Of a stretch of 49,191 nucleotides of DNA, positions 16,399 to 33,794 are shown one piece after another. Position 1 is the first letter of the stretch; every line of letters begins with the position of its first letter. The notes below the pieces were generated by a model, which saw only the letters and a program-made list of their open reading frames with translations, was not told the origin of the DNA and did no database searches. Made by a program: the position numbers and the translations under genes. Source of the stretch: Betaproteobacteria bacterium SCGC AG-212-J23 (GTDB lineage: Bacteria; Pseudomonadota; Gammaproteobacteria; Burkholderiales; SG8-39); NCBI GenBank assembly GCA_001644455.1, contig LSTF01000002.1, forward strand, positions 1 to 49,191, written 5' to 3'.

Positions 16399-16848
16399 AT
16401 GCAAGTCATCCTCATGGAGAAAGTGTCGAACCTCGGCGAGCTCGGCGACGTCGTCAAGGTGAAGGACGGCTACGCCCGCAACTTCCTCATCCCGGAAGGC
16501 AAGGCGAAGCGCGCCACGCCGGAGAACCTCAAGGCGTTCGAGTCGCGCCGGGCCGAGCTGGAGAAGGCGCAGGCCGACGTGCTCGCCAAGGCGCAGGAGC
16601 GCGGCACGAAGCTGGAGAGCCTGACGGTCCAGATCACGCAGAAGGCCGGCCCGGACGGCCGCCTGTTCGGCTCGGTGACCAACTACGACATCGTCGAAGA
16701 GCTGAAGAAGCAGGGCCACGAGGTCGAGCGGGCGATGATCCGCATGCCCCAGGGGCCGCTGAAGCAGGTGGGCGAGTATCCGCTGCAGATCGCGCTGCAC
16801 ACCGATGTGACCGTCACGGTCAAGGTTTCAGTGCTCGGCGAGCAGTAA
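16399..16848 (+). CDS. rplI: 50S ribosomal protein L9
   Basis: L9 (149 aa) is a two-domain protein bridging the L1 stalk base to neighbouring ribosomes. The N-terminal domain begins [19 protein letters not shown], followed by the signature [17 protein letters not shown], a long connecting helix ([20 protein letters not shown]) and the C-terminal rRNA-binding domain ([20 protein letters not shown]). It is last in the rpsF operon and followed within 30 bp by a strong intrinsic terminator. Length is standard. Confidence 0.97.
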
Positions 16849-16873
16849 CCGCGCTGCAACACGGCAGGAAACG

Positions 16874-16901
16874 AAAAAGGCCGCGCCAGCGGCCTTTTTT
16901 T
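16874..16901 (+). terminator. Rho-independent terminator of the rpsF-rplI operon
   Basis: GGCCGC (16879-16884) pairs with GCGGCC (16889-16894) around loop GCCA; five A residues before and seven T residues after extend the stem and supply the U-tract. It lies 26 bp after the rplI stop, so it ends the ribosomal operon and isolates dnaB. Confidence 0.93.
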
Positions 16902-16913
16902 CGCGGGCGTATA

Positions 16914-16929
16914 CTGTATATCGATACAG
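16914..16929. promoter_or_regulatory. LexA (SOS) box upstream of dnaB
   Basis: CTGTATATCGATACAG is a CTGT-N8-ACAG palindrome identical in its invariant bases to the E. coli-type SOS box, with flanking TA before it. A TATACT hexamer (16910-16915) overlaps it, so a promoter here would be occluded by LexA. The only gene downstream on the plus strand before the next operon is dnaB, 212 bp away; on the other strand no gene points away from it. Binding is inferred from consensus. Confidence 0.75.
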
Positions 16930-16947
16930 TCAAGAAGAATATTTTTT

Positions 16948-17001
16948 CTGTGCACAGGCTCGTCCACACCTTATCGACACGCTGTCCACAGCTAATCCAC
17001 A
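16948..17001 (+). promoter_or_regulatory. Array of five DnaA-box-like 9-mers
   Basis: Five same-orientation 9-mers resemble the DnaA box TTATCCACA: CTGTGCACA (16948), TCGTCCACA (16960), TTATCGACA (16971), CTGTCCACA (16982) and TAATCCACA (16993). The third and fifth differ by one base, the others by two or three. Start-to-start spacing is 12, 11, 11, 11 bp, close to one helical turn. The AT-rich tract 16932-16947 abuts the first box. It lies between the SOS box and dnaB; a DnaA-responsive control element is the simplest reading. Confidence 0.6.
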
Positions 17002-17140
17002 AGCGGCGGGCGGCCCATGCCCCGTGTGCTCACTTTTCGATCAGCGCCGCGGCGAATATTTGTTCGACGCCTCCGCGTTTCGACCTATCAAATAAAAATC
17101 CCGCGGCGATTCCTATGATGCGCGCGGGGAGAAAACAATA

Positions 17141-33020: not shown

Positions 33021-33387
33021 GGCCGAGAAGAACGTGCTCGGCGGCGAGCTGCGCGCCTGCAGCTATGCGCCGCTTACCGGCTACTTCCGCGACGGCTGCT
33101 GCGCGACCCACGACCAGGACGGCGTCGCGCACCTCGTCTGCGTGCAGGTGACCGACGCCTTCCTCGAATTCAGCGTCGCCAAGGGCAACGACCTCGTCAC
33201 GCCGCGCCCGGAGATGCGCTTCCGCGGCCTGAAGCACGGCGACCGCTGGTGCCTGCACGTGCTGCGCTGGGTCGAGGCCTGGGAGGCGGGCAAGGCGCCG
33301 CGCGTCATCCTCGAGGCGACGCACGAGAACGTGCTGCAGTACGCGCCGCTTTCGGCGCTGAAGCGCTACGCGGACGACCTGAACTAG
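33013..33387 (+). CDS. DUF2237 family protein
   Basis: This 124-residue protein of the DUF2237 family begins NVLGGELRACSYAPLTGYFRDGCC, the family signature with several Cys residues, and continues HLVCVQVTDAFLEFSVAKGND and LKHGDRWCLHVLRW. Function is unknown; structures of relatives show a compact beta-rich domain. It overlaps the thrC stop by 8 bp and is followed 2 bp later by the VOC gene, so it is part of the alaC-hom-thrC unit. No signal peptide. Confidence 0.87.
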   Translation: MPEAEKNVLGGELRACSYAPLTGYFRDGCCATHDQDGVAHLVCVQVTDAFLEFSVAKGNDLVTPRPEMRFRGLKHGDRWCLHVLRWVEAWEAGKAPRVILEATHENVLQYAPLSALKRYADDLN

Positions 33388-33389
33388 CC

Positions 33390-33794
33390 GTGTTCAAGCG
33401 CATCGACCACATCGAGCTCCTGACCGCCTCGCCCGAGCGCATCGTCGAGTTCTACACCGGCATCCTCGGCTTCCACGAGCGGGAGCGCTTGCGAATCCCG
33501 GGGACGCCTTCCGGCCCGCTCGACCTCGTCTACCTCGAGCTCGGTGGTACGACGCTCGAAGTCATGTGCTACCCCGAAGCGAAGCCGCCGATCCCCGCTC
33601 GCGCAGCCGAGCAGCATCTCGGCTGGCAATGCCTGGCGCTCGAAGTGGAGGACATGGATCTGGCCGTCAGCGCGCTCGAAGCGAAGGGCGTGAAGCTTGC
33701 CTGGGGTCCCATGAAGCGGCCGGACTACGCGCGCGCCGAGATCCGCGACCCGGACGGGAACCCGATCGAGCTCAGGCAGTGGACCCGACGCTGA
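33390..33794 (+). CDS. VOC (glyoxalase/dioxygenase fold) protein
   Basis: This 134-residue vicinal-oxygen-chelate protein starts at GTG 33390 with FKRIDHIELLTASPERIVEF, the first His of the metal site. Other possible ligands are Glu in LELGGTTLEVM, His in AEQHLGWQCL and Glu in DGNPIELRQW. The two beta-alpha-beta-beta-beta modules are intact. It could be a lactoylglutathione-lyase-like or epimerase-like enzyme; the substrate cannot be read from sequence. It is last in the thrC unit, and its 3' end overlaps the convergent prenyltransferase gene by 23 bp. Confidence 0.88.
   Translation: MFKRIDHIELLTASPERIVEFYTGILGFHERERLRIPGTPSGPLDLVYLELGGTTLEVMCYPEAKPPIPARAAEQHLGWQCLALEVEDMDLAVSALEAKGVKLAWGPMKRPDYARAEIRDPDGNPIELRQWTRR

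Follow-up and report, generated by a model that had tools for sequence, protein, structure and literature searches.

What reads the row of DnaA-box-like sequences in front of the replicative helicase gene dnaB in the uncultured Betaproteobacteria bacterium SCGC AG-212-J23, and could it couple expression of the helicase to the initiator protein DnaA? To address this, we analyzed the arrangement, rarity and conservation of these sequences in the window, by which we mean the whole 49,191-nucleotide stretch of DNA under study, and compared them with known DnaA-binding systems.

An array of DnaA-box-like sites between rplI and dnaB

The intergenic region between rplI and dnaB contains, in this order, the rplI terminator, a LexA-operator-like palindrome, an AT-rich tract and five DnaA-box-like 9-mers (Table 1). 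The original prediction described five 9-mers facing one direction, with one to three mismatches to TTATCCACA and start-to-start steps of 12, 11, 11 and 11 bp, adjoining an AT-rich tract, and both its coordinates and its sequence proved exact. All five sites lie on the plus strand, and they are separated by one 3-bp gap and three 2-bp gaps, the sole 3-bp gap coming after the weakest box (site 1).

Table 1. Features of the rplI-dnaB region, in window coordinates
Feature	Sequence	Position	Strand	Remarks
rplI, ribosomal protein L9 (upstream gene)		16399-16848	+	Pfam Ribosomal_L9 N and C
rplI intrinsic terminator	AAAAAGGCCGC-GCCA-GCGGCCTTTTTTT	16874-16901	+	Read by eye; absent from the list of the automatic scan
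LexA-operator-like palindrome	TACTGTATATCGATACAGTC	16912-16931	.	17/20 to the classical consensus; overlooked in the original prediction
AT-rich tract	TCAAGAAGAATATTTTTTCT	16930-16949	.	16/20 A/T; adjoins the 5' side of the array
DnaA-box-like site 1	CTGTGCACA	16948-16956	+	3 mismatches to TTATCCACA; weakest site, 12 bp before site 2
DnaA-box-like site 2	TCGTCCACA	16960-16968	+	2 mismatches to TTATCCACA; unit aligned in 9 genomes
DnaA-box-like site 3	TTATCGACA	16971-16979	+	1 mismatch to TTATCCACA; within the 9-genome alignment
DnaA-box-like site 4	CTGTCCACA	16982-16990	+	2 mismatches to TTATCCACA; CACA invariant in nine aligned arrays
DnaA-box-like site 5	TAATCCACA	16993-17001	+	1 mismatch to TTATCCACA; identical 9-mer in 6/9 aligned arrays, the window's included
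Putative dnaB -10	TATGAT	17114-17119	+	Kept across the alignment of eight genus members (G004 reads TAAGAT)
dnaB, replicative helicase, 469 aa		17141-18550	+	GTG start; Pfam DnaB_C E 1.4e-111, DnaB E 5.2e-35

Single boxes with two or three mismatches are common by chance. For the arrangement as a whole, a five-unit chain with 11- or 12-bp steps was scored in the window and on both strands of 60 first-order Markov copies of it, and the array reached 36 of 45, against a maximum of 26 on either strand of the simulated copies. The best four-box score within the window was 30 at the array, compared with 20 on the minus strand. That degenerate 9-mers have merely clustered here by accident is contradicted by these simulations as well as by the conservation and the phasing presented below, and we give this explanation practically no weight.

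The original prediction had also called for a genome scan for the rarity of such clusters. We built a 44-bp, four-unit, sequence-only profile from nine arrays, the window's included (model R1), and in the assembled part of the draft genome (2.06 Mb, ~60% complete) it gave a single match at E<=1, which is the dnaB array itself (E 4.5e-11). A simpler pattern, TCNACA three times at an 11-bp period with <=1 mismatch, is restricted to 12 of the 61 related genomes searched, and its two overlapping matches in the genome of the window both lie inside the dnaB array. Because its training set included several of the arrays that it later retrieved, R1 is partly circular, a reservation that applies less to the pattern search and to the anchor test described below. 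Among the weaker hits to the profile or the pattern in related genomes, those on G004 C42, G009 C117, G008 C243, G021 C7, G023 C40 and G059 C6 were inspected and displayed no clear link to replication. One locus on G021 C7 (L166, positions 33343-33403) repeats a unit containing TCCACA in tandem, almost perfectly, every 11 bp and may not be DnaA-related.

Conservation and phasing among relatives

The original prediction was to be refuted by a lack of conservation in relatives together with a lack of DnaA binding in vitro; the array upstream of dnaB is conserved in relatives. All nine genus members in which the region is covered have the 11-bp phasing ahead of dnaB, and in each of the nine the four-unit chain scored above all 300 simulations, the four-unit windows being chosen by consensus match and the simulations handled identically. 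The chain also exceeded all 300 simulations in G012, G026, G027, L036, L037, L048, L052 and L064; by the same comparison, the array is absent upstream of dnaB in L041, L044, L057, L087 and L091, among others. The close relatives are mostly incomplete metagenome assemblies, and the named ones are described as Betaproteobacteria or Burkholderiales. In the surrounding clade, 15 of 17 rows have the phasing, which is patchy across the rest of the order. On the DnaB tree, the rows with the array fall mostly into one clade (15/17) with scattered cases outside, and the array label changes six times, compared with a mean of 14.0 for shuffled labels. Many of the family and order members whose dnaB upstream regions were compared lack the array, and control of dnaB by DnaA through such an array is not general in the order.

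To examine the period with less dependence on the profile, we performed an anchor test on 21 dnaB upstream regions, which scores 9-mers at fixed offsets whatever their sequence but is still anchored on the best box. The 9-mers located +/-11, 22 and 33 bp from that box matched the consensus at a mean of 3.81 of 9 positions, whereas other periods gave 1.8-2.5 of 9, except for 3.03 at period 22, a multiple of 11. At the level of the alignment, six of the seven aligned relatives share 67-78% identity with the window over the array, against 33-55% for the flank (105 bp 3' of the array), indicating that the array has been kept while its surroundings drifted. In G005 the array did not align (38%), and this genome carries its own phased boxes nearer dnaB. 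The GTCAAG and the A/T run of the AT-rich tract were found again in several genus members. The distance from the array to dnaB ranges from 50 to 288 bp between genomes, and this variability is a weak point of any regulatory reading.

DnaA and other candidate readers of the array

The DNA-binding domain of the organism's own DnaA is normal and matches the E. coli structure 1j1v with an E of 1.4e-31. The spacing had been predicted to suit a DnaA filament, in agreement with the literature: in T. maritima, same-facing pairs of DnaA boxes form a paired complex best with a 2-bp gap (PMC10316083), and the low-affinity sites within each array of E. coli oriC lie 2 bp apart and are filled cooperatively (PMC6727663). 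The left and right low-affinity arrays of E. coli oriC thus resemble the dnaB array in their weak 9-mers of one orientation separated by 2 bp (PMC6727663; orientation PMC10316083), whereas the dnaB array is not at an origin, lacks a trio or unwinding element on the side where one would be expected and stands before dnaB. The likely oriC is the interval from dnaA to dnaN (L124, that is G000:C63, with L125, L127, L131 and L134), in which several box-like sites precede trio-like repeats (CTACTACTAA is an example) close to dnaN; on the upstream side of dnaA, one strong box only was seen. The likely oriC of the clade displays a weaker form of the 11-bp phasing, with 3.1-3.2 versus 2.0-2.7 at other periods.

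The strong R1 matches in relatives are those at dnaB, and weak ones occur just downstream of dnaA in G034, G037 and G015 and upstream of nrdA in G032 and G048 (the nrdA of G032 is identified from its translated sequence alone, that of G048 by separate evidence too). A scan upstream of nrdA located arrays scoring 22-23 of 27 in G039 (L227), G048 (L233) and G049 (L243), which belong to other families of the order; among the genus members examined, the region before nrdA contained no such array. In E. coli, nrdAB is known to be targeted by DnaA (PMC8203912). Since the weak matches of R1 include known kinds of DnaA target (oriC and nrdA), our results suggest a possible use for phased arrays in predicting the DnaA regulons of bacteria that have not been cultured.

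If DnaA does bind the array, its position before dnaB could be incidental, the array serving mainly for titration or, like datA, for hydrolysis of DnaA-ATP. The array is indeed a tight group of DnaA-type sites, with a higher density of boxes than is visible in the organism's own dnaA-dnaN region, and as a cluster outside oriC it is comparable to DARS1, DARS2 and datA of E. coli. Five sites are few, however, and titration gives no reason for the array to remain before dnaB throughout the clade despite the drift of sequence and distance. The lack of a good IHF consensus nearby (the best has 2 mismatches, and the IHF preference of this clade may differ) may also speak against a datA-like role, because datA works with IHF (PMC8682772). 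Taken together, we regard this explanation as unlikely. The original prediction had also offered a reactivation site, which does not hold up: boxes I and II of DARS face each other, whereas all five sites here face one way. datA and DARS2 use IHF (PMC8682772), for which no good site was found at the dnaB array.

The 11-bp repeat could instead be read by another protein whose site resembles the DnaA box, or it could act through RNA. In its favor, many units retain little beyond CACA, and some response regulators likewise recognize direct repeats of 11 bp. On the other side, units at the period of the array are closer to TTATCCACA than units at other periods, and similar arrays occur at oriC and nrdA; for an RNA element, an Rfam search gave no match near its gathering score. 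We consider this alternative quite improbable. The combination of the array with an AT tract and its oriC-like spacing also raised a replication origin, or a second origin, in which a DnaA array would sit beside an AT-rich unwinding element. Yet the TACTAC/TAGTAG trio is absent from 16850-17140, in contrast to the trio-like repeats near dnaN; the AT tract lies 5' of the boxes with a GC-rich 3' side, whereas the trio of the dnaA-dnaN region sits 3' of same-facing boxes; and the GC skew of the 49-kb window does not clearly change sign around 17 kb. With trio, flank and skew all contrary, an origin is very improbable, and we rejected it.

Possible control of dnaB by DnaA and LexA

We somewhat favor a reading in which the array is an oriC-style, low-affinity, cooperative DnaA element that regulates dnaB. 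DnaA, probably in the form of ATP-DnaA, would bind at the stronger boxes (sites 3 and 5) and, at high levels of active DnaA, would extend along the array as a head-to-tail oligomer. This oligomer would alter dnaB transcription, most likely by activation, and its target may be the promoter of the conserved TATGAT downstream or another promoter close to the LexA-like site; the supply of helicase would thereby track the activity of DnaA. The preference for activation comes from three sources: the I282T DnaA of Mycobacterium tuberculosis binds less upstream of dnaB and under-expresses dnaB (PMC7738170), the DnaA regulon of Caulobacter includes dnaB (PMC8203912), and the putative dnaB promoter of the window has a conserved -10 and no recognizable -35, the -35 position reading AATAAA. 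An automatic promoter and terminator scan of the region listed no consensus sigma-70 pair and no terminator. The array lies ~112 bp upstream of the putative -10, which is far for direct contact with RNA polymerase unless the DNA loops, and this weak point counts against regulation.

Precedents for DnaA acting at dnaB exist in other bacteria. In Caulobacter crescentus, an alphaproteobacterium, DnaA boxes are predicted upstream of dnaB, and dnaB was identified in the DnaA regulon (reviewed in PMC8203912); in M. tuberculosis, of a distant phylum, DnaA is enriched upstream of dnaB in vitro (PMC7738170). DnaA boxes likewise precede a replication-supply gene in the nrdAB promoter of E. coli, where activation or repression depends on DnaA and its nucleotide (PMC8203912); the gene there is another one, and the nrdA loci of the genus differ as described above. 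Control of dnaB by DnaA is thus already known from Caulobacter, and the phased array found here would be a further form of it. A search for literature on DnaA boxes before dnaB in Burkholderia retrieved nothing relevant by titles and abstracts. Of the feedback of DnaA on dnaB that had originally been raised, the conserved DnaA-type sites before dnaB and the precedents stand. The effect itself and its direction, together with DnaA binding and the preference for ATP, are what we infer from features seen at the level of sequence, namely the sites, their spacing, orientation and conservation, and the similar arrays at the oriC and nrdA of relatives. If the favored reading is true, helicase supply is tied to the activity of the very initiator that loads the replicative helicase, and the array, with its conservation, phasing and low-affinity DnaA sites in front of dnaB, offers a concrete, testable element.

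The palindrome upstream of the array may add a second input. Besides its core, CTGT-N8-ACAG (CTGTATATCGATACAG, 16914-16929), the draft genome contains two further CTGTN8ACAG sites, and the whole palindrome resembles the lexA operators of the genus, of which those of G003, G004, G006, G007, G009 and G010 begin TACTGTATAT. Good LexA-like matches also stand before dnaB in G006 and G007, and the site before dnaB in G005, TACTGTATAAAATGCCACTA, is one position off the lexA operator of G006, TACTGTATATAATGCCACTA. A lexA gene was not found in the organism's own draft genome (~60% complete), and a search for literature on LexA control of dnaB in Betaproteobacteria retrieved nothing relevant by titles and abstracts. 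These operator-like sequences suggest SOS control of dnaB in four of the nine genus members (the genome of the window, G005, G006 and G007). More tentatively, and with the odds against it, the array may be a filament switch working outside oriC, in which an ATP-DnaA oligomer on an oriC-like array is read out as dnaB transcription and is joined in some species by a LexA operator, so that helicase supply would be set by initiator activity and DNA damage, with other families of the order placing a similar array before nrdA.

Elsewhere, another LexA-like site, CTGTATATACGTACAG, was noticed at L144 (G000:C121), around position 1414, where an ORF on the minus strand begins, the product of which looks, from its sequence, like a three-Cys-motif partner protein.
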